Assembly (NCBI GenBank): GCA_026709535.1
Contig: JAPOST010000060.1
Location: 1 to 54,068, forward strand
Length of the DNA stretch: 54,068 nucleotides
Source: Rhodospirillaceae bacterium
GTDB lineage: Bacteria; Pseudomonadota; Alphaproteobacteria; Bin65
Direction of reading: 5' to 3'
Made by a program: the position numbers and the translations under genes. Within the stretch, counting starts at the first letter, position 1. Every line of letters begins with the position of its first letter. The notes under the pieces are model-generated. The model saw only the letters and a program-made list of their open reading frames with translations, had not been told where the DNA came from and did not search any database. Shown piece by piece: positions 9,829 to 37,118 of this stretch.

Positions 9829-11308
9829 TGGCGCCGCCAGATCCACCAAGGGCGCTCCAGGCATCGTCACCTGCGATGCCTGCCCGGTCCTGTGCCGCAT
9901 TCGGGAGGGCCGGACAGGTGCCTGTGACCGCTACGGCAACATTGAAGGCGCGCTGACCCGTATGGACCCCTTCGTGGTTGCTCAGCGCGCCGGGAAGAAC
10001 GGCGATCTGGTACCGTTTCAGGACAGGGAATGGGATGGGTCGTTAATCCAGGGAGCGGACACTTTCGTGACCGGTGTCGGGTCCGGTACGACTTACCCGG
10101 ACTACAAGCCCGCGCCTTTCATCGTGGCAAGCCGCCACGACGGCATCGATATGGTGACCGTCGTGTCGGAAGGAATCTTCAGCTATTGCGGCCTGAAGGT
10201 GAAAATCGATACTGACCGATATATTGGTCCGGAAACCGCGCCGATCCGGGTCAAGGGCCAGCAGGTTGGTCACGTGACAACTGCCGAGTATGGCTCACAA
10301 ATGATGTCTCTCGGCGGGGTTCGCCACCTGACAGGCGGCTCCAAGAAAGAGGGTGTTGTTACTTGCGATGTGATGCTGCGTCTATCGAATGGAGAAGCCA
10401 TCGACTTCAGCATTGACGGCGGGGAGGAACTCACCCTTCAGCCGGGCAAGCCCCCGATCATCGGTGGTCATCATGAGGAACGAATGCGGGTAGGTTGTGG
10501 CTCGGCAACCATCGGCATCTTTGCGCAGCAATGGTTCGGCCATGCCGACGAGGTCATTGTGGTTGATGACCACATTACCGGCGTGTTGACTGAACACCAG
10601 GCTGGCCGATTTCTGGACATGGCTCCCGGCGGAATCCGGGTGCGCGGCCGCAAATCCACTCCCGGCCGCTATTTCCAGGTTGCCGAGCCGGGCAGCGGCT
10701 GGGGCGGTACCGATGTGACGGATCCACTCGCCATCATCGAAACCATCAACCCGGATATCGCCTGGCCCGGCGAGCGGCTGCTGATGGTCAGCACGACCGG
10801 TGAGGACTCGGAGTATTTCGTCCTCGACGACGATCTCAACCCTCAAAAGGCGTCAATGCCGGATTCCCTGTCGTTGGTGGTCGATCGCATCGGCGAAAAC
10901 TGCGAGCCTGCCCTGACGACTGTCCTGTTCATGGCTGGCGCTGGCGGATCCTTGCGCGCCGGTGTGACGGAGAATCCGGTCCGGCTGACCCGCTCGGTCC
11001 GCAGTGCGTTGACCCGGGTCACGGCCGGCGGAGCGTCTGTCTACATCTGGCCAGGTGGTGGGATTACGATCATGGTAGACGTCACCACGATGCCGGACAA
11101 CAGTTTCGGGCACGTTCCGACGCCGGCTATCGTGGCGCCCATCGAGTTTACTCTCCGTCTGGACGACTACAAGGCCTTGGGCGGCCACATGGACGCCGTG
11201 AAGCGGATCGAAGACGTGGCTGGCGATCACCGCCTGCGCGTCGAGAAATGGCATGACCGGGCTCCCTGGCCGGGAGCGCCCCTGCACGGCGTTGCAGCCG
11301 ACGGATGA
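9821..11308 (+). CDS. 6-hydroxynicotinate reductase-like Fe-S flavoprotein
   Basis: A 495-residue protein whose N-terminus has C18, C21, C25 and C35 (CxxCxxxC then a fourth Cys), fitting a 4Fe-4S cluster. The central GVGSGTTYPDYKPAPF (85-100) and GIFSYCGLKVKIDTDRYIG are features I associate with 6-hydroxynicotinate reductases (Hnr) of E. barkeri and Azorhizobium. The known reaction is ferredoxin-type reduction of 6-hydroxynicotinate to 1,4,5,6-tetrahydro-6-oxonicotinate, the substrate of enamidase, which is encoded in the same operon (19247). ATG 9821 lies inside the 3' end of the hydroxylase gene. The next gene starts by ATGA overlap. Exact substrate could be another hydroxypyridine. Confidence 0.8.
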   Translation: MSDGAARSTKGAPGIVTCDACPVLCRIREGRTGACDRYGNIEGALTRMDPFVVAQRAGKNGDLVPFQDREWDGSLIQGADTFVTGVGSGTTYPDYKPAPFIVASRHDGIDMVTVVSEGIFSYCGLKVKIDTDRYIGPETAPIRVKGQQVGHVTTAEYGSQMMSLGGVRHLTGGSKKEGVVTCDVMLRLSNGEAIDFSIDGGEELTLQPGKPPIIGGHHEERMRVGCGSATIGIFAQQWFGHADEVIVVDDHITGVLTEHQAGRFLDMAPGGIRVRGRKSTPGRYFQVAEPGSGWGGTDVTDPLAIIETINPDIAWPGERLLMVSTTGEDSEYFVLDDDLNPQKASMPDSLSLVVDRIGENCEPALTTVLFMAGAGGSLRAGVTENPVRLTRSVRSALTRVTAGGASVYIWPGGGITIMVDVTTMPDNSFGHVPTPAIVAPIEFTLRLDDYKALGGHMDAVKRIEDVAGDHRLRVEKWHDRAPWPGAPLHGVAADG

Positions 11309-12195
11309 GCGGTACGACGACCATACCAGGCGCCGTTCGCGCTGTCCTGCCGAACAGTCGGCGGCAGCACTTCCAACACGGCCCGATCGATCTGGTGATC
11401 GAGTGCTTTGGCGAGTCGTCGGACGTTCGTCATGCCTACGATCAGGCTTGGGACCGGTTTGAAACCATCCTGGCCGAACTGGCTGGCGAACTGTCAGAAT
11501 TGCGGACTGTCATCTCGGCGACGTCTGTCGTCACTGGCACGACGGCACGACGGATGATAGCGGCCTGCCGACCACACGCCCGGCAATTCGTTACCCCGAT
11601 GGCGGCCGTCGCCGGGGCCGTCGCGGACGAGATCCTCGACGCGCTGTCGGCCGGAAGGATCCTGCAACGGGCTTATGTCAACAATGGCGGGGACATTGCC
11701 GTCCATCTCGCTCCCGGCGAGACTTTCACAACCGGTCTTGTAATCCTGGGCGAGGCGCCTGCGGTTGCCGGAACGCTCCGGTTGAGGTCTGATCAGGGCG
11801 TCCGAGGAATTGCCAGCAGCGGTTGGCGCGGTCGCAGCCTGTCCAGGGGTATCGCCGATTCGGTCACCGTCCTGGCGTCTTCGGCTGCGGTCGCCGATGC
11901 GGCGGCGACGCTGATTGCCAACGATGTCTACGTCGAAACCCCTACGGTCCGGCAGGTTCCGGCGCAAAGCCTGGATCCGGAAAGCGATCTGGGCGATCGT
12001 CTCGTCACGGTGGCTGTTGGCGACCTTGCCAGCGCGGAGATCAGCCAGGCCCTGGATGCCGGAAGCGCGACGGCTCAAGCCATGCTCTCGGCCGGATTGA
12101 TCCACGCGACGTATCTGGCGCTCGCCGGCAAGAGCCGCGTTATTGGCGCCGCTCCCTCCTTGATTGACCTTGCCAGACAACAGGAAGCCGCATGA
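11305..12195 (+). CDS. UPF0280 protein, ApbE-like superfamily
   Basis: A 296-residue UPF0280/COG2122 member. Family blocks: PMAAVAGAVADEIL (98-111), AYVNNGGDIAVHL (123-135), and SSGWRGRSLSRGIADSVTVLASSAAVADAAAT. The VNNGGDI block and the late SGxxxR...VTVxAxxAxxADA pattern mirror ApbE, the FAD:protein FMN transferase, suggesting a shared fold. Function of UPF0280 is not established. It sits by 4-base overlaps between the Hnr-like reductase and a DUF1185 gene, so it probably works on the same pathway; flavin attachment to the reductase is one testable idea. Confidence 0.85.
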   Translation: MSGTTTIPGAVRAVLPNSRRQHFQHGPIDLVIECFGESSDVRHAYDQAWDRFETILAELAGELSELRTVISATSVVTGTTARRMIAACRPHARQFVTPMAAVAGAVADEILDALSAGRILQRAYVNNGGDIAVHLAPGETFTTGLVILGEAPAVAGTLRLRSDQGVRGIASSGWRGRSLSRGIADSVTVLASSAAVADAAATLIANDVYVETPTVRQVPAQSLDPESDLGDRLVTVAVGDLASAEISQALDAGSATAQAMLSAGLIHATYLALAGKSRVIGAAPSLIDLARQQEAA

Positions 12196-12779
12196 GTGAC
12201 TTGATAGCCATCCGCAAGATCGTGACTGCAACGGAAGAAATCCGGCACGAGGGAGGCCCTGAGCCGGCAGTCCCACGTTGTCGCGGCGCCATCACAGTGG
12301 TGATGAAAAACCCCTATGCTGGCCGGTATGTCGAAGATATCGTTCCCATGATGGAGGCGCTGACACCGGTCGGGCTGGATATGGCCGGGCAGCTGATCAA
12401 GGCCCTGGGCGGCGATGCATCCAGGATTGACGGCTACGGAAAGGGTGCAATTGTCGGCGAAGCGGGCGAACTCGAGCATGGCGCGTTGTGGCACGTCCCG
12501 GGCGGTTATGCGATGCGAGAACTGTTGGGTGATGCCAGGGCCATTGTTCCATCGTCCAAGAAGGTGGGCGGTGTGGGCACGCGCCTTGATGTGCCGATTA
12601 CGCATATCAACGCCTCCTACGTTCGGGGCCATTTCGATGCGATGGAGACCGGCGTCGCCGATGCTCCGAAGGCCGACGAGATAGCCTTCATTCTTGTGAT
12701 GTCGATCGGATCGCGCATTCACGACCGGGTCGGCGGTCTCAAGGCGGCAGCCATCAAGGGGGAGGACGGCCTCCGATGA
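12192..12779 (+). CDS. DUF1185 (amino acid synthesis family) protein, first copy
   Basis: A 195-residue member of PF06684 (DUF1185). Visible hallmarks: NPYAGRYVEDIVPMM near the N-terminus, YGKGAIVGEAGELEHGALWH in the centre, VPSSKKVGGVGTRLDVPITH, and a C-terminal IKGEDGLR. Structures from this family have a chorismate-mutase-like fold; the Pfam name is historical and the biochemical role is unknown. Its ATG overlaps the UPF0280 stop (ATGA). A second paralogue lies 6 kb downstream in the same operon. It may be a hydrolase or isomerase for a ring-opened amide or enol intermediate, but this is conjecture. Confidence 0.85.
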   Translation: MSDLIAIRKIVTATEEIRHEGGPEPAVPRCRGAITVVMKNPYAGRYVEDIVPMMEALTPVGLDMAGQLIKALGGDASRIDGYGKGAIVGEAGELEHGALWHVPGGYAMRELLGDARAIVPSSKKVGGVGTRLDVPITHINASYVRGHFDAMETGVADAPKADEIAFILVMSIGSRIHDRVGGLKAAAIKGEDGLR

Positions 12780-28749: not shown

Positions 28750-28761
28750 TGATGGCAATCT

Positions 28762-28871
28762 CTCAATGGGGCCTCTCAATGGGGCCTCTCAATGGGGCCT
28801 CTCAATGGGGCCTCTCAATGGGGCCTCTCAATGGGGCCTCTCAATGGGGCCTCTCAATGGGGCCTCTCAAT
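28762..28871 (+). repeat. 13-bp tandem repeat, 8 perfect copies plus a partial
   Basis: The unit CTCAATGGGGCCT is repeated eight times without a mismatch from 28762 to 28865, then CTCAAT (28866-28871). It ends 6 bases before the AGGAGG ribosome site of the lipoprotein gene. The unit is not a multiple of three and contains one ATG. Perfect identity suggests recent or ongoing slippage. Confidence 0.97.
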
Positions 28872-28891: not shown

Positions 28892-29353
28892 ATGTCCTTT
28901 CACGACACCATCCGTCAATTCCCGTCCCGCCTGGATGCTCCGCGTCTTGGAATGGTCGTCGCAGCCCTTGCGGCCATCACAATCGGGGGTTGTACAGCAC
29001 ATCAAAACAACTCTGCCGCCGTTCCTGCGCCAGCCGCAACAGCAGCAGCTGCGACTGACTGGAAGCGAGTCAAAACCCTTGACGAATTCTCCGGCAGCAT
29101 TGTCGGCAAGAAGCTCGTCACCTCGATCAGCGAGCAGATTTTCCACGCCGACGGTACCAGCACCGGTACTTACAAGGGTTACAAGGTCAAGGGAACGTGG
29201 TGGTGGCAGACGGATACCTACTGCCAGGAGATGGGTGTCGTGAACCGGGGCAGCAGGAGGGATTGCGGCAGAACCATCGCCGTTCAGGACAACAAAGCTC
29301 ATGTCACGCGCGGCGACGGCTCGAAATACATCGCCACAATCATGCAGAAGTAG
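28892..29353 (+). CDS. Small predicted lipoprotein of unknown function
   Basis: A 153-residue protein with a lipoprotein signal: a hydrophobic stretch MVVAALAAITIGGC with lipobox IGGC, lipid on the cysteine near residue 34. An Ala/Pro-rich linker precedes a compact domain containing FSGSIVGKKL, FHADGTSTGTYKGYKVKGTWWW, YCQEM and RRDCGRTI, with an adenylate-like beta pattern seen in many small alphaproteobacterial secreted proteins. Two later cysteines could pair. AGGAGG (28878-28883) gives a strong start at 28892, placed straight after the 13-bp repeat array. The function is unknown to me. Confidence 0.75.
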   Translation: MSFHDTIRQFPSRLDAPRLGMVVAALAAITIGGCTAHQNNSAAVPAPAATAAAATDWKRVKTLDEFSGSIVGKKLVTSISEQIFHADGTSTGTYKGYKVKGTWWWQTDTYCQEMGVVNRGSRRDCGRTIAVQDNKAHVTRGDGSKYIATIMQK

Positions 29354-29848: not shown

Positions 29849-31183
29849 ATGTTGAAGCAAATTGTAGAGGGCAATCGCCGCGCCATCCTGATCTTTGCAA
29901 TTGGCATGAGTAGCTTTCTCGCTACAGTAACACCCGGTCAAGCATCGCCCTACGGAACTGTGTATGACTCAGCGTTCAAGGCGATGCTTCAGAACCCGAC
30001 CGACCTCGATATCACATTCAAATTTGCCATGATTGCCCGGCGCGCGGGTGACCTCGAAGGCGCGATCGGTGCCCTAGAGCGTATGCTGATTTACAATCGC
30101 GATTTACCGATCATTTACTTCGAACTAGCTCGGCTCTACGCTGGCCTTGGTTCGACCGAAGCTGCAAAACGCTATTACCGTTCCGCTTTGCGTTACAAGC
30201 CGCCGCCAAGAATCCGGGCAACTATCGAGGCAGCGCTTACGCGTCTGGAAACAGACTCGAAACCAAGTTCGTTCTCCGGATCAATATTTTCTGGATTCCA
30301 GTATCAGACAAACGCAATTTTTGCTCCGGATGATCCTCAAGTCAAAGTCAGGGGCAATACTGCCAGATTGGCTGACGAATTTCTCGCGCAATCCGATGTC
30401 AACGGCATAATCTCAGCACAGCTTACTCACCGATATGATCTCGGCAGGGATCCGGCTGTATTCATTGTGAGTGAATTGCAGTTGTACGGCTCTCGACAGC
30501 GGAAATTTGATAGGAATGACATTGATCTTTTTTCGGCGACTTTCGGGCCAGCATTTTCGCTGACAGGAAATACGGTCGTTCGACCCTTTCTTCGCGGCGA
30601 TTGGATTCTGCTGGACAGTGCAACTTTCTATCGGTCTTTCGGCGGCGGAATCCGGTTCAATGAGGCACGGCCCGGCAAGAGCTTGTCGAGCTATTTCGTG
30701 GAAGCTGTGCTGCTTCATCGTGATTTCAGGAACAGCGCGCGTTCGCCGCTGCTTGATCATCGCAACGGCCTGATTGTTTCTGTCCGGAGCGGGTTAAGGA
30801 TTAAACTGACCTCGTCACTGACATTAAACGGTTTCGGCAAACTCGAGCACAAAGTCGGCAAAGCTGAATATGAATCGTTTACGGGAGGCAATCTCGGCAC
30901 GACGATTGTGCATCGCTTGCCAGCGCCGATTGGCCGAAGGGCATGGAATGTTTCTGTCACAGGCGAAGCTGGTATTCGTCATTACGCCGCTCCTGATCCG
31001 ACGGTCGATCCTGACAATAACCGTGAGGACACGAATATCGCTATCGCTTTCAGCCTCGGCATACCGTTGAACCATAGTTTCTCGTTTACGGTTCAGGTTC
31101 GTCAGTCGTGGCGGATGTCGAATCTGCCCAACTTCGAATTTGACAATACGTCCTTTCTCACCGGCTTTCTGATCCATCTCTAG
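29849..31183 (+). CDS. Slam-like outer-membrane protein: TPR domain plus beta-barrel
   Basis: A 444-residue secreted protein. A signal peptide (~1-34, ending near QAS) is followed by a short TPR region (DLEGAIGALERMLIYNRDLPIIYFELARLYAGLGSTEAAKRYY). From ~145 on are alternating amphipathic strands ending FLIHL, as in a transmembrane beta-barrel with a C-terminal aromatic/leucine signature. TPR plus ~14-strand barrel is the layout of surface lipoprotein assembly modulators (Slam, DUF560), which move TbpB-like proteins to the cell surface. The next gene, 10 bases on, encodes a protein with such a barrel at its C-terminus, which supports the call. ATG 29849 is preferred to the TTG just before it. 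Confidence 0.65.
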   Translation: MLKQIVEGNRRAILIFAIGMSSFLATVTPGQASPYGTVYDSAFKAMLQNPTDLDITFKFAMIARRAGDLEGAIGALERMLIYNRDLPIIYFELARLYAGLGSTEAAKRYYRSALRYKPPPRIRATIEAALTRLETDSKPSSFSGSIFSGFQYQTNAIFAPDDPQVKVRGNTARLADEFLAQSDVNGIISAQLTHRYDLGRDPAVFIVSELQLYGSRQRKFDRNDIDLFSATFGPAFSLTGNTVVRPFLRGDWILLDSATFYRSFGGGIRFNEARPGKSLSSYFVEAVLLHRDFRNSARSPLLDHRNGLIVSVRSGLRIKLTSSLTLNGFGKLEHKVGKAEYESFTGGNLGTTIVHRLPAPIGRRAWNVSVTGEAGIRHYAAPDPTVDPDNNREDTNIAIAFSLGIPLNHSFSFTVQVRQSWRMSNLPNFEFDNTSFLTGFLIHL

Positions 31184-31193
31184 GAGTTTGATC

Positions 31194-33668
31194 ATGATCC
31201 TCGACAGCAAGTACTACCCGAAGATTTCATTTTCGTGTTTCAGGTCGCGCTTGCAGCTGTTCGGCGTGGCGAGCTTACTTGCATTGCCTGCGATTTCAAC
31301 GGCGTCTGAGGCTATCGCCGCCAATGCTGGGCGGACAACCGCGGTCATCCAGCAGACACGCGGCACGCCACCGGGAGAGACAACGCGCGTCCTGCGGCCT
31401 AAACTCGACATATTCCAGAACGAACGCATCCAGACCGACGAACGGGGCGTGACGCAGATACTGTTCGTCGACGGTACCAATCTGACCGTAGGGCCGAAGA
31501 GCGACCTGCTGATCGACCGTTTCGTCTACGATCCGAAGACCTCCGTCGGCAAGATGGCGACCAGGCTAGGGCGCGGTGTCCTGCGCTTAGTGGGCGGCCA
31601 GATCAGCAAGAGCGGCAAGGTCTCGATTACAACGCCGGTTGCGGTGATCGGAGTGCGGGGTGGAATCGCTCTCATCCAACACAGCGAAGATAACGGGACC
31701 CAAGCCGTCTTCCTGTTCGGAGATAACATGACAGTGGCCCGCCTGGACCGGAGCGGCAAGATCGCAGATACAAGGCTCATTACCAGGCCGGGTTTCGCCG
31801 TGACGATCTCAAGCGACGGCAACTTCTCTGCTGCGCGACGGGCCGACCCGGCACAGATGAACGATCTGCTGAGCGCCCTTGAAACAAAGCAAGAACAGGG
31901 GAACGGATCGGAGCCGACGAATGAGCGGGCCGTATCCAAGTCCGGATCGATCTATATCGCTGATTCAGGTTTCGTAGCCTCTGAAGTCGCCGGTACGCGT
32001 TCACACGGAGACATCGGCCGGTATGGTTCCGACGAGGCCCAGAGCATTATACAAGACCGGAATGAACGACACCCACTTAATCTGTCGGTACCGGCACCAT
32101 CATCTCCAGCACTTTGGATCTATAACGCTGGCACGAGCAACATCAATTACGACCTGCCGTTCATGCGCATCAACGGCAGCAGTGTCCATCCACTCACCAT
32201 TGTCAAGCGCGCCGAAGATGACACCCGTTATCCTTATCGGGGTCTGCGGATTCGAAGCCGGTTTTCCGGCACCGGTGATGGGCAGGAGGCCCTCAGCGTG
32301 ATCCAAACCGGCTGGATCCTGGAATCACCAGGCGAGGACGCTGGGTGGCAGGGTTGGGTAGCCGGCTCTGCACGTGGACCCGTTACCCTTGTCGATGGCG
32401 ACCTCACCAGCGACGACATGTATCTGATCTGGTCGCATATTGTCGATGACCGTTCCAAAAACCCGTCACCCGTGTTTAACAGCCGGCAACCGACGGAAAC
32501 ACTCCATACGGTCGGTGTTGAATTCGAGGGAGCGACGTTACCTATCTATATTCGGGCGCATGACGATGTAAGGGATTCGGCGGGGACCGAGGTAGAATGG
32601 ACGCTGGCGGAACCGCCTCGACCCGTGACTCATTACGGCCCACGGGGTGAAAGAAACTGGCGAGGCTATGCGGCCGGACTGTTTGAGCGGCATGATGGAG
32701 GCAGCCCCCTTCTCTACAGCCTCGTCAACAGGAACCGGTCGCCAGACGACGTCTATTTGGGAACGAATCCAAGGACTAGCGGACTGTATGCCTACTTCCA
32801 GCTCGGCCCTCCCGATCCGGATGGCCCAGGTCCGCTTGAGCCTTCGACTGGTCCCGGCGGGATCAATCGACTGACTGTTCATTTCGGTCGAGGACCTAGT
32901 GGCCAGTTGCGGAGCGCGCAGCGGAGTGATCCTGAAGTCGATGCAATATCGGGTTCCCGAAGTGCCTATGTCAGCGACCGGGTCTTCGCCGCGATCAGTT
33001 CGGTCGGTCTGGAACGAACGGACTCAGGAGGCTTCATCACAAGAACTCGTTTGATCTGGGTTAACGGCAACCTCGTTCCCAACCGCCTCGACAATCGCAT
33101 GTGGCTTTACAGCAACGACGCAGCCCCGGCAGACGGCCTCCTGTCGGCAAGCGTAGAGTACTGCAAATGTCCGGCCGTCAAGTTTGGTTGGTGGGGCGGT
33201 CGGATCAGATCGGACGAGGGCGAGGACATATTCCGGGATGATGTCTTTCCAGGGACTTTTGTTGTCGGCGCATTGCCGGACATCGCGGACATTCCTGTGT
33301 CCGGCACTGCGTCCTACGCGGGACATGTCGCGGCTGCGATCCACAATAACGGTTCCACCTACGCTGCGGTAGGCCGCTTCACCATGAACTGGAATTTTGC
33401 GACCCGCACAGGCAGCGCTGCCGTCACCGGCCTCGACGGCAGGGACTATGCCGTCGGCGATCTTGCGGCGACGACCGCCAATCCGCGAGACTTCCACGGC
33501 ACGCTTTTCCAGACGGCAGGAACTGGAGTCGACAGTCCCGCATCAGGACCGATCGACGGCTCGTTCTTTTCGGACGGCAATAACCCGGTTCGGGATACGG
33601 GCGGCCAGTTCAGCGTGACCTCCGGCGACGGCTACCATGCAACCGGATCCTTTGCTGCTACACAGTAA
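31194..33668 (+). CDS. FecR-domain protein with TbpB-like C-terminal barrel
   Basis: An 824-residue exported protein. ATG 31194 is set by AGGAG at 31182-31186. A signal peptide (to ~40, AIAANA) leads to a FecR domain (~45-175): GETTRVLRPKLDIFQNERIQTDERG, LFVDGTNLTVGPKSDLLID, and VSITTPVAVIGVRGG. The middle ~450 residues are unassigned and rich in Gly, Asp and Pro. The final ~110 residues show FTMNWNFATRTGSAAVTGLDG...GTLF...GPIDGSFFSDG...ATGSFAATQ, the look of an 8-strand TbpB/hemophilin-like barrel. FecR domains sense or transmit periplasmic signals. Possible substrate of the Slam-like neighbour; there is no lipobox, so surface tethering would differ from classic Slam clients. Confidence 0.7.
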   Translation: MILDSKYYPKISFSCFRSRLQLFGVASLLALPAISTASEAIAANAGRTTAVIQQTRGTPPGETTRVLRPKLDIFQNERIQTDERGVTQILFVDGTNLTVGPKSDLLIDRFVYDPKTSVGKMATRLGRGVLRLVGGQISKSGKVSITTPVAVIGVRGGIALIQHSEDNGTQAVFLFGDNMTVARLDRSGKIADTRLITRPGFAVTISSDGNFSAARRADPAQMNDLLSALETKQEQGNGSEPTNERAVSKSGSIYIADSGFVASEVAGTRSHGDIGRYGSDEAQSIIQDRNERHPLNLSVPAPSSPALWIYNAGTSNINYDLPFMRINGSSVHPLTIVKRAEDDTRYPYRGLRIRSRFSGTGDGQEALSVIQTGWILESPGEDAGWQGWVAGSARGPVTLVDGDLTSDDMYLIWSHIVDDRSKNPSPVFNSRQPTETLHTVGVEFEGATLPIYIRAHDDVRDSAGTEVEWTLAEPPRPVTHYGPRGERNWRGYAAGLFERHDGGSPLLYSLVNRNRSPDDVYLGTNPRTSGLYAYFQLGPPDPDGPGPLEPSTGPGGINRLTVHFGRGPSGQLRSAQRSDPEVDAISGSRSAYVSDRVFAAISSVGLERTDSGGFITRTRLIWVNGNLVPNRLDNRMWLYSNDAAPADGLLSASVEYCKCPAVKFGWWGGRIRSDEGEDIFRDDVFPGTFVVGALPDIADIPVSGTASYAGHVAAAIHNNGSTYAAVGRFTMNWNFATRTGSAAVTGLDGRDYAVGDLAATTANPRDFHGTLFQTAGTGVDSPASGPIDGSFFSDGNNPVRDTGGQFSVTSGDGYHATGSFAATQ

Positions 33669-33870
33669 GGCTTGCTAGCCACCCCGCCCGAGATGGCTGT
33701 TGCGTAGGCGTTTATCAACAGCGGAAACGCGCTACCTCGGATATTTCACGAACAAGGTACCGCCGTGCTCCGTCTTGTGCGATGATTCAGTTGGTTGATC
33801 GGAATCCGACACGGGAGCGCGGCGGTGACGGATCGTCTCCCGGATCGTCTTCCATTTCCAGCCTGCCGGG

Positions 33871-34470
33871 TTGAGGCGGGTGGGGGATCCGCGCCGGCGG
33901 GTATTCGGTATGGCGCCGGGTCATGAGAACCTGAACGACCGTGCCGATCGGTACCACGATCTCGGCTTTCAGACGGCGACCGGTCGCGATCAAGCATGGG
34001 CGATCCACGCGGTTCCGATGGAGAGCTTGCCTGCGGTCTCGACAGGGCCACCTTCAAGGCTCCGCCGGAAGAGATCGTTCCGGACGTCGATGCAACCGAC
34101 GATGCGGTGCGGTGCCCAACAATCGGCAGAGGCGCTTCTTCCACGGCTCCCATGACCGGTACGGCTTCATTTTGCCGTCCGTGTTCTGCGGCGACCCCCC
34201 GCTGGTGGCACGGCATACCGGGGCCATCCTGAAACATTCGGTGGCGCGCCTGCACCGGACCCGGCCGGAAGTGCGGGCCGCTTCGGGCTTCTGCCTCCAT
34301 GGCTCAAGAGGCCAGCCGATGCGCCGGTGCGAACGCTACGGCGTGGTCACCATTCTCGGTCTGGCGTGCAACGCCCAGCTTGGCGACCCTGGCGGCGCCC
34401 GCGGCGGGGACCGTGAGCGCCGGGTGATCGCCCGCCTCAAGCACGACGGAACAATCCGCGCTTCGTGGTA
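33871..34470 (+). pseudogene. IS1380-family transposase relic
   Basis: Successive pieces of an IS1380-type DDE transposase appear in three frames: RVFGMAPGHENLNDRADR (from ~33895), then IVPDVDATDDAV, then RRFFHGSHDRYGFILPSVFCGD...HTGAILK and ASGFCLHGS...RYGVVTILGLACNAQLGD. These match the family's YEDLNDHD, DxDATDD, CYLPLYVFCGD, ADSGF and YVFGLARNxRL blocks. At least two frameshifts, many substitutions and missing ends make it dead. No terminal inverted repeats could be defined. Confidence 0.8.
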
Positions 34471-34859
34471 ACCAACCTAGCGGTGACGGCTGAGGACCGC
34501 CCCTTGGGCCTTTTCACGATGGACGCTGCCTTTCCGGGATGGGGGCGACAGCTGGCGGATTAAGAGCCCCGGTAGGCATGCGGATCGGCTTGTATACAAT
34601 CGAAGCCGCGGATGTCGATGCGCTGCGGCGTTTGATCAAGCGGCATCGCATCGGGGCTGAACAGGTTTTCAAGAAAGGTGCGTTCTGCCCTGCTACGAGG
34701 CGGGCTGCTGCGGCGCGACAATCTGGGGGAGAGCTGCGCGACAAGGAGATGGTCCCGCATGGGTCCGGGCACAACGCGTCCAGATCGACTAACGCTAGTT
34801 GAGGTTGGGCTTCCACACTCCACCCAACCGAAGGAGTGCCACGATGACCGGAAAGCCTG
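34471..34859. other. Intergenic remainder between IS1380 relic and cyclase gene
   Basis: No intact gene recognised. Short frames here lack ribosome sites and family features. It probably includes more decayed mobile-element DNA. Confidence 0.4.
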
Positions 34860-37118
34860 TCATTTTGACGGCGAACGGAAGACCCCATCCCAATCTTTGC
34901 CGGGTGGATGAGTCCGCAGTAGTTCGAGACGTACAATGTAGGTGCTGTAGAGATCTTCCAATTTACCGCCTGAGAGCTTTCGGCATTCCTCAAAGCCCTC
35001 TGCGGCTTTGTCCCATTCTTGACGGCGATATGCGGTCAGCGCTGCATCATGCCGCGTTTGCAAGGCAACAAAGGCGGGATTAACTGCATTTCGTTCGTCT
35101 CCTGCCAGATAATAGATAGACAGAGCCTCTTTCCTACCCCGTACCTGGACTCGGTCAAGTTCAAGATAGGACAATTGCGTAGTAAGGCGTTGAGTGTCCT
35201 CTCCGACAATAATGTCGACGCCATAAATTCTTGTCTGCTGCTCAAGCCGGGAAGCTACATTGACGGCATCGCCAAGGGCGGAGTAGTCAAAGCGCTGTTC
35301 CGAGCCCAAATTTCCTACACAACACAACCCTGTGTTCAAGCCAATACCGATCTGAACGGGCAAAAATATCTTGCCCGCTCTTTCCGCTTCGGATTCCCAT
35401 ACAGGGTTCAACTCCTCCAAACGACTGGATATTCCGAGAGCTGCTCGACAGCCCATGAGAAAGTGTTCCGGTTCGCGGATTGGGGCATTCCAGAACGCCA
35501 TGATGGCATCGCCCATATACTTGTCGATGGTGCCGCCACTTTCAAGAACGACCTTGGTCATCGGCGTCAAAAATCGATTGATGAATGCAGTGAGTTCTTC
35601 AGCTGTCATAGCTTCCGCGATGGAAGTGAAGCCCCGAATATCGCAGAACATAAGCGTCAAGTTCCGAGTCTCGCCGCCTAGCTTGAGACCCTCCGGATGT
35701 TGAGCAAGTTTCTCGACGACGGCGGGGGCTAGATAGCGGCTGAAGGCAATTCGCACGCGACGGCGGTCCCGTTCGCTGGCAAGATATCGCAGGCTGATGA
35801 CAAGTAGGTAGGTCAAAGCGACCGACAGGGACGGATACAAAGGATCCAAGAGAAATCCAGTCCGGCTATATGCTACCCACGAGATAGTCCAAACAAGAAT
35901 AGCGACGGTACTGCCGACGATCGCGCCAGCGATCGGGCCGACAAGAAAAGCAAGCAGAAATAGAAGAAGCCCGCCCAGTACCAGTGAGAGTATGGTTTCC
36001 GCGCCATCTGACCAGTCAGGACGCTGCAGAAAACGTTGCAGGAGCATTTGCTCCAGCGCCTGCGCATGAATCGTTGCACTTGTTTCTGCTGCATTCAGTG
36101 GCGTTGCATTGCTGTTTTGCAAACCCGCTGCGCTGGCTCCGATGATTACGATCCGACTTTCGAATTCTGACGCAAGAGCAGCGTAATTGGCTTCGAAAAT
36201 TCGCCAAGCCGGGACTATGCGCGTCGGTACGGGCGGAGTGAAATGCAGCCACATGTCGCCGCGCGGTCCGGTCGGCACCGTGAAGCGGCCGATTTTCAAC
36301 TCGAGGGGGATCGCTTCGGCATCGGAAGAAGCGCTGCCGATGGTGGAGCTTCGCGCTACTATTGTTGTTGCCCTCTGGGCCACTCGAAGGGCTTCGACGC
36401 TGAGGGCAGGGTAAACCTTGTGTCCGACCCGCGCCAGAAGCGGAATTCGGCGAACCAGACCATCAGGGTCAAGAGAGATAACGAGTGAGCCTATACCGCT
36501 CGCGCTCTTCTGGAGAGGCGCCAAGTTTGTGATTGAAGATTTATAGAAGTCGAGAGCTGGCATCGGATTGCCGCCAATGTAGGCGAAGCCGAACTTGACA
36601 GGTGGCGGGGGCGACTCTCCGATGTGGTCGGGAGCGAAACCAAGCACGACGGGATTCGACGAAAAGAGATTCGCTAGGATACGGTCATGATCCGGCAATA
36701 GTGACAGTGTTTCACTCAGCCGCTTTACTTCCGACGTTTGAGGCCAGTCCTTCATGGCTCGAAATGGCGAGGTTCGATCCGGTTCGGCGAAAACGATTGC
36801 AAAGGCGACTGCAGCAGCGCCGAATTCGGAAAGTCGTTCGACCAGCGTTGCAATCCGTGTACGCGGCCAAGGCCATTGACCTAAGCGCCGTAAAGACTCG
36901 TTATCGATATCGATCACGCGCACCGGTGCCTGCTCGTAGTATCGCGGTTTGATGCGCTGATACATATCGAAAACAGCCAAACGCAGCCTCAGTACGGGCA
37001 ACGGATCGGCAGCACGCAAACTAACTACGCACCCTAATACGGCGAGGCCAATGAATAAAACCGGCAGCAATCGTGTTCTGGGCGGTTTCAAGGAGCCTAA
37101 TTCTGAGGAGGTAGTCAA
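34860..37118 (-). CDS. CHASE2-domain class III adenylate cyclase
   Basis: A 752-residue membrane sensor. After an N-terminal helix (LLPVLFIGLAVLGCVVSL) a periplasmic CHASE2 domain (~40-345) starts with FDMYQRIKPRYYEQAPVRVIDIDNESL. Two or three helices (~375-455) then lead to a cytosolic cyclase domain (~490-680): FCDIRGFTS and GDAIMAFW hold the metal aspartates, IDKYMGD the adenine-specifying lysine, and ALGDAVNVASRLE the transition-state asparagine/arginine. The second purine-specifying position is a serine (DYSALGD), as in class IIIb, so the product is most likely cAMP. CHASE2 cyclases are often encoded beside FecR proteins, as here, though convergently. Confidence 0.93.
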   Translation of the reverse strand: MTTSSELGSLKPPRTRLLPVLFIGLAVLGCVVSLRAADPLPVLRLRLAVFDMYQRIKPRYYEQAPVRVIDIDNESLRRLGQWPWPRTRIATLVERLSEFGAAAVAFAIVFAEPDRTSPFRAMKDWPQTSEVKRLSETLSLLPDHDRILANLFSSNPVVLGFAPDHIGESPPPPVKFGFAYIGGNPMPALDFYKSSITNLAPLQKSASGIGSLVISLDPDGLVRRIPLLARVGHKVYPALSVEALRVAQRATTIVARSSTIGSASSDAEAIPLELKIGRFTVPTGPRGDMWLHFTPPVPTRIVPAWRIFEANYAALASEFESRIVIIGASAAGLQNSNATPLNAAETSATIHAQALEQMLLQRFLQRPDWSDGAETILSLVLGGLLLFLLAFLVGPIAGAIVGSTVAILVWTISWVAYSRTGFLLDPLYPSLSVALTYLLVISLRYLASERDRRRVRIAFSRYLAPAVVEKLAQHPEGLKLGGETRNLTLMFCDIRGFTSIAEAMTAEELTAFINRFLTPMTKVVLESGGTIDKYMGDAIMAFWNAPIREPEHFLMGCRAALGISSRLEELNPVWESEAERAGKIFLPVQIGIGLNTGLCCVGNLGSEQRFDYSALGDAVNVASRLEQQTRIYGVDIIVGEDTQRLTTQLSYLELDRVQVRGRKEALSIYYLAGDERNAVNPAFVALQTRHDAALTAYRRQEWDKAAEGFEECRKLSGGKLEDLYSTYIVRLELLRTHPPGKDWDGVFRSPSK

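Follow-up and report, generated by a model that had tools for sequence, protein, structure and literature searches.

The contig JAPOST010000060.1 of a Rhodospirillaceae bacterium (assembly GCA_026709535.1; 3.67 Mb in 203 contigs, 96.2% complete), analyzed here over its full 54,068 nucleotides and referred to as the window (contig 37 of the assembly), carries three neighboring genes that bring together a relative of the Slam outer-membrane proteins, a FecR domain protein ending in a predicted TbpB-like barrel, and a CHASE2 nucleotide cyclase. Gene 1 (29849..31183, forward strand; ATG at 29849, stop codon at 31181-31183) encodes a predicted Slam-like outer-membrane protein of 444 residues. Gene 2 (31194..33668, forward strand) encodes the FecR-TbpB-like protein of 824 residues, and its ATG at 31194 lies, as read from the sequence, 10 bp past the stop of gene 1; in this junction (31181..31193, forward strand) an AGGAG motif (31182-31186) overlaps the stop codon. 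Gene 3 (34860..37118, reverse strand) encodes an adenylate/guanylate cyclase of 752 residues, counted from an uncertain TTG start. A preliminary description of this DNA had placed a Slam-like gene directly before a FecR gene and close to a CHASE2 cyclase gene, and both the sequence and Pfam matches bear out this arrangement and its positions. Across the whole assembly, only one FecR match and only one CHASE2 match were found, both at this locus, and the neighborhood recurs in other genomes; for these reasons the trio is considered to be more than a chance association.

Gene 1 has the layout of Slam-type proteins, in which N-terminal tetratricopeptide repeats (TPRs; Pfam matches at residues 60-130, 30026-30238, forward strand) are followed by a predicted barrel (residues ~145-444, 30281-31180, forward strand) whose homology to Slam was recognized by profile alignment and in a tree. 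When 19 relatives from the FecR-linked clade, including the window protein, were compared with eight Slam proteins by hhalign, the two families matched over their full length (382 columns) with 100% probability and an E value of 8e-41. In a tree of 47 rows, a branch with 100/99 support parted 39 rows of the FecR-linked clade (seven of them without FecR in view) from eight canonical Slams, and because of this branch gene 1 is assigned, judging from its sequence, to a sister clade of the canonical Slams that is homologous to Slam/DUF560 over the full length. In a Pfam scan, the gene 1 protein gave no match to PF04575 (DUF560) at E ≤ 1 and so remained short of the Slam cut-off, its TPR_Slam match was present below threshold, and no family exceeded its cut-off in the C-terminal half. 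PF04575 was passed by all four scanned among the eight reference Slams (L049, L051, L053, and L055) and matched by none of the four scanned members of the 19-member alignment; among FecR-linked proteins, those of L040 (a trio, 52.3 bits) and L056 passed it, and those of L004, L012, L023, and L034 failed. A Slam profile searched against the PDB matched TPR regions only, and direct Pfam or PDB support for the barrel was not obtained. The grouping with DUF560, on which the preliminary description depended, therefore holds at the profile and tree level, as a sister clade, and not at the level of a PF04575 match.

The protein encoded by gene 2 ends in a predicted eight-stranded barrel of the TbpB/NHBA type (33303..33665, forward strand), a feature of Slam clients, and like such clients it is encoded next to a Slam-type gene. 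A barrel profile built from 12 C-termini of FecR proteins at Slam-like loci was searched against the PDB, and its top matches were NHBA (2.4e-7) and TbpB (5.4e-6), followed by fHbp and LbpB; the search gave 31 rows at E ≤ 10, of which 28, the first 27 included, belong to these four proteins. NHBA and LbpB are Slam-dependent. The same dependence has been reported for TbpB and fHbp (PMC5449769). At E ≤ 1, TbpB_B_D matched 10 and slam_lipo, an NCBIfam model for Slam-dependent lipoproteins, 11 of the 12 C-termini; the whole gene 2 protein stayed below both curated cut-offs, with 16.3 bits against 26 for the former and 31.2 bits against 80 for the latter, and FHBP_C gave a weak match at its C-terminus. 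An AlphaFold2 (AF2) model made from two sequences contained eight strands in residues 704-824, with a predicted local distance difference test score (pLDDT) of 73-95 in this block and below 50 in the lead-in (33156..33302, forward strand), a CxC...WGWWGG segment that is recognizable in FecR-barrel relatives. All 15 Foldseek hits below 0.001 were TbpB, NHBA, or fHbp, with modest TM-scores by query length (0.41-0.53), and HpuA, PmSLP, and hemophilin ranked after them. VIA-align superposed the barrel on NHBA with a Z of 14.4 and a root-mean-square deviation of 2.1 over 108 residues, a Z to be read beside the value of 13 likewise reached by the integral barrels OmpX and Ail. Seven FecR C-termini from outside Alphaproteobacteria matched the barrel profile only partially (86%, 81 columns). 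The TbpB-like barrel at this end of the protein, on which the preliminary description had staked its idea, is thus predicted by the PDB profile search, AF2, Foldseek, and VIA-align.

The FecR domain itself (PF04773; 31425..31712, forward strand; 29.9 bits, cut-off 24) could point to cell-surface signaling of the FecI/FecR type, with the gene 2 product serving as an anti-sigma regulator. This role is disfavored to the point of being hardly credible, considering that FecR is the sole N-terminal Pfam match, that a signal peptide is recognizable by eye at the start of the protein, and that no sigma factor or TonB-dependent receptor was found among the 10 neighbors scanned at E ≤ 0.001, a criterion which is usual and not absolute.

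As had been noticed before, the gene 2 protein lacks a lipobox, both by inspection and by a regular expression applied to the first 90 residues, and by this feature it falls outside the Slam-dependent surface lipoproteins; the further claim that this makes it an unusual client is not sustained. The pattern without LPxC forms recovered two of nine canonical cargo proteins and a widened pattern six of the nine (barrel proteins without FecR), and with both patterns none of the 33 FecR proteins in the first set, some of them without a Slam-like gene in view, had a lipobox. Cargo of the type 11 secretion system (T11SS), to which Slams belong, is reported to be 97.8% soluble in DUF560 subcluster 1B (PMC8406197). 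Since soluble T11SS cargo is known and none of these 33 FecR proteins carries a lipobox, its absence is not unusual, and its treatment as an anomaly was rejected. Among 17 further FecR proteins, two (L121 and L124) had a lipobox. The former (10045-12744 of its locus), a non-alphaproteobacterial FecR protein beside a Slam-like gene, has a lipobox-like VAGC and, by eye, a barrel-like end, and is possibly a lipidated FecR client.

In gene 3, both CHASE2 (177.4 bits) and Guanylate_cyc (69.3 bits) exceeded their Pfam cut-offs. The CHASE2 domain (35973..37031, reverse strand) is flanked by hydrophobic segments at residues ~14-43 and ~371-417, and the class III cyclase domain (35103..35669, reverse strand) contains the motifs CDIRG, DKYMGD, ALGDAVN, and NVASR. 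The gene is convergent with the Slam-FecR pair and 1.2 kb away from it. Within the gap (33669-34859), three open reading frames (ORFs) had no Pfam matches, and a remnant of an IS1380-like transposase gene (34047..34192, no strand assigned; query 379-524 of the gap) was 71.3% identical to ISPosp7 of Polaromonas. Upstream of the trio, a tandem array (28760-28871) consists of 8.6 copies, at 100%, of the 13-bp unit CTCTCAATGGGGC; just 3' of it lies a small lipoprotein-like ORF (28892-29353) with IGGC near the N-terminus and no Pfam match at E ≤ 0.001. Promoter and terminator scans gave no usable signal.

In the sister genome (L057, the same as G004 and counted once), whose FecR and Slam proteins share 57% and 65% identity with those of the window, the cyclase, Slam, and FecR genes are co-directional. 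This order, the IS1380-like remnant, and the tandem array would all suit a decayed locus, in which insertion sequence activity moved the cyclase gene away from its two partners, leaving the unit without function in the window organism. Such decay is nevertheless very improbable: all three frames are open, and L023, the next nearest relative in the tree and the nearest outside the genus, also has a Slam-FecR pair convergent with the cyclase gene, which lies 9 bp from FecR. Because L023 shares the convergent cyclase, the order in the window may be old.

The co-occurrence of the three genes was surveyed using a four-row Slam-like profile over 144 alphaproteobacterial genomes, which yielded 68 rows; 40 of the 67 outside the window were analyzed (39 at E ≤ 8.6e-13 and one in G138), and 27 weaker ones were left out. 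Neighbors were detected by hidden Markov models (HMMs) built from window seeds, and FecR was counted if it lay within 700 bp of the Slam-like gene. FecR was present beside 25 of the 40 Slam-like loci, eight times with and 17 times without a barrel according to the HMM; six loci had a barrel protein without FecR, and nine had neither (two of these, L017 and L032, lie at contig ends). A CHASE2 cyclase occurred in the analyzed stretch at 14 loci, 13 of which also had FecR and hence all three genes, and at none of the eight canonical Slam loci. A phylum-wide scan of 397 genomes found 29 loci besides the window (four repeat class loci), with FecR beside 19 of them, including seven of the nine from other classes, a barrel protein without FecR at five, and neither at five. 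Slam, FecR, and a strong CHASE2 match were found together in six of 14 larger phylum stretches, chosen as seven from outside Alphaproteobacteria and seven others, and trios also exist outside that class (L116 and L117). Named examples are plasmid p1 of Shinella sp. H4-D48 and pAMI5 of Paracoccus aminophilus, and Azospirillum thermophilum has a Slam-FecR pair with no cyclase in view. The possibility that the FecR-barrel protein is a private oddity of the window genome was rejected by the two surveys.

In 12 of the 25 Slam-FecR pairs, no CHASE2 cyclase was found in the analyzed stretch, and in the window the cyclase gene is convergent. Both points favor an ordinary T11SS secretion unit, whose FecR-barrel protein would be soluble and either secreted or at the surface, and whose cyclase would only regulate it or happen to be a neighbor. 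A soluble TbpB-barrel cargo is indeed reported to be secreted by the T11SS in HrpB-HrpC (PMC8406197). With all three genes together at 13 class loci and in other classes, we rate this explanation as quite unlikely.

As a control, 20 of the 21 FecR frames of at least 550 residues that lie away from Slam-like matches, among the best 150 FecR rows, were analyzed. A barrel was found in one of these 20 regions (L078, where the frame runs off the contig end), a count that includes five regions in which the FecR HMM was silent and one (L064) with a weak Slam-like frame after FecR. Barrel and Slam presence go together. In L078 (8581-11487), the upstream neighbor of the FecR-barrel frame lies beyond the contig. 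The linkage was also considered from the cyclase side: among the best 150 CHASE2 matches listed, the one in the window included, 36 had FecR, 18 a Slam-like gene, 49 either of them, and 31 FecR only within 10 kb. These counts used 44 Slam rows, three of which were weak and had been added for lying beside FecR or CHASE2; without the three, the numbers were 36, 16, 48, and 32, respectively. By density alone, FecR would be expected within 10 kb of about 0.9% of CHASE2 matches.

Some loci have further features. At L027, L029, and L030, neither FecR nor a cyclase is in view near the Slam-like gene, which belongs to the FecR-linked clade; at L029 and L030, it adjoins membrane-protein genes that resemble each other and, by eye, NrfD. 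In the Shinella locus (L059, 12989-15191), the trio lies between a C39-peptidase gene and NHLP bacteriocin export genes, the latter following it. In P. aminophilus (L061, 4542-6368), a gene for a cyclic-nucleotide-binding, patatin-like protein is located just upstream of the trio on the opposite strand, and its product is a possible target of cyclic AMP (cAMP).

On balance, and with some reserve, we favor the view that the three proteins form a unit through which a signal at the outer membrane reaches cAMP in the cytoplasm. Sec would export the FecR protein to the periplasm, where the Slam-like protein, with periplasmic TPRs and its own barrel in the outer membrane, would recognize the TbpB-like barrel, and this barrel, or the whole protein, might then be exposed on the outer membrane or carried across it. 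In known FecR proteins the FecR domain is extracytoplasmic. Here, it may tell the periplasmic CHASE2 domain which state the outer-membrane complex is in (ligand bound, export completed, or export blocked), upon which the inner-membrane cyclase would raise or lower cAMP for CRP-type regulators. Two cNMP-binding (cyclic nucleotide-binding) matches in the window genome were counted in favor of this unit, together with the full-length homology of the FecR-linked Slam-like proteins to Slams, the barrel domain of the FecR protein and its association with Slam, the clustering of the three genes, and their co-directional order in the sister genome. Of the link from the envelope to cAMP that had been suggested for this locus, the recurrent genetic association with a CHASE2 cyclase is supported, and the precedent of NsrA and CyaK makes the link itself plausible.

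In Sinorhizobium meliloti, NsrA has been described as an outer-membrane protein needed together with CyaK for signal-dependent cAMP production (PMC7529298, PMC13001267), and CyaK is SMb20776 (PMC5498481). We found a single CHASE2 match on pSymB, which as the only such gene there must be CyaK. The frame directly upstream, which we take to be nsrA, encodes TPRs and a FecR domain (57.2 bits) at 85-179. It has 1219 residues, a length consistent with the barrel reported for NsrA at residues 600-1200 (PMC7529298). NsrA-CyaK/CyaD thus resembles the window in that FecR and TPR parts are encoded directly upstream of a CHASE2 cyclase, the window likewise having a FecR protein encoded with such a cyclase; it differs in that NsrA unites FecR, TPRs, and barrel in one chain, whereas the window splits these parts over two proteins and its FecR protein carries a TbpB-like barrel. 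We infer that FecR proteins are able to connect CHASE2 cyclases with partners in the outer membrane, the partner here being a Slam-type protein with a FecR protein of the Slam-client type.

Several observations weigh against the three-part signaling unit. NsrA has no Slam match at E ≤ 0.1, and an S. meliloti mutant in the FecR gene smc02177 is reported to have still perceived the plant signal (PMC5498481), which speaks against sensing as a general role of FecR partners. Of the two structure predictions proposed at the outset, the FecR barrel could be modeled and gene 1 could not, its AF2 model from two sequences having a mean pLDDT of 39.9, too poor to use. The cyclase gene is convergent with the pair and separated from it by the remnant, the FecR protein found no match in five further genomes of the genus, and seven of the 40 class loci have Slam-like genes of the FecR-linked clade without FecR in view. 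Furthermore, if the whole FecR protein were released outside, no contact between FecR and CHASE2 would be possible. Finally, the HMM detected no barrel in 17 of the 25 FecR partners, and profile comparison gave no barrel signal in eight C-termini of such partners or their kin. The pairing therefore outlives the barrel; what the loci have in common may be something other than classical export, and the barrel-less partners speak against export as the universal function of the Slam-like protein.

These barrel-less partners also favor a receptor without export, in which the Slam-like barrel senses a ligand and the FecR protein, bound by the periplasmic TPRs, relays the state to CHASE2 through its FecR domain; the TbpB-like barrel would be an ancestral cargo tag that some lineages have retained for docking and others have lost. 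The single chain of NsrA, with FecR, TPRs, and barrel, fits this scheme, as do the 32 of the best 150 CHASE2 matches that have FecR and no Slam-like gene within 10 kb. However, the barrel domain in the window is confidently predicted and, in the control, the occurrence of barrels follows that of Slam, and we hold this alternative to be possible though on the unlikely side. The signaling unit with export could also take the form of a T11SS exporter turned trans-envelope receptor, with the FecR protein held midway so that its FecR domain stays in the periplasm while its barrel is either outside or within the Slam-like pore; this is a speculative version and rather doubtful. If it were true, the CHASE2 cyclase would be switched when, at the surface, a ligand binds or cargo is released, the export state would itself be the signal, and the FecR-linked clade would represent one T11SS group without known cargo. 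Reception of an outside signal by CHASE2 cyclases has, in the accessible parts of the literature, been worked out genetically in one organism. The widespread trio makes the questions of T11SS cargo and CHASE2 input testable with the same three genes, and it offers a candidate rule by which second-messenger output could follow the state of the outer membrane.

Several other systems share parts of this arrangement. FecI-FecR-FecA combines a FecR domain protein with an outer-membrane partner, as the window does, whereas no sigma factor or TonB-dependent receptor was among the scanned neighbors in the window. An iron locus with a sigma factor, FecR, a TbpB-like protein, and Slam appears in the available part of a report on Lysobacter, and in magnetotactic bacteria a CHASE2 cyclase gene comes after mtxA, whose product bears TPRs (PMC4439547). 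A Campylobacterota cluster containing the same kinds of genes (CHASE2 cyclase, phosphodiesterase, FecR outer-membrane protein, and TPR protein) was proposed to form one pathway; the likeness is one of description, and the accessible text mentions no Slam or TbpB barrel (PMC9239204). Similarly, a Burkholderia biofilm operon encodes a FecR protein beside a CHASE2 sensor, but its output is a histidine kinase, its FecR protein is of the LysM-FecR type, and no Slam or barrel is described in the text available (PMC5192318). In literature searches made mostly without subscription papers or supplements, no paper was found to combine T11SS/DUF560 with either FecR or CHASE2 in a unit of this kind, and term counts for two T11SS papers gave no occurrence of FecR or of cyclase in the main text. 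For most DUF560 clusters the cargo is, according to the T11SS authors, as yet unknown (PMC8406197). The T11SS with HrpB-HrpC and hemophilin resembles the window in joining a TPR-barrel protein to a neighbor with a Sec-type signal and a C-terminal eight-stranded barrel (PMC8406197), whereas the window protein belongs to a separate clade without a PF04575 match, its partner carries FecR, and a CHASE2 cyclase lies in the neighborhood.

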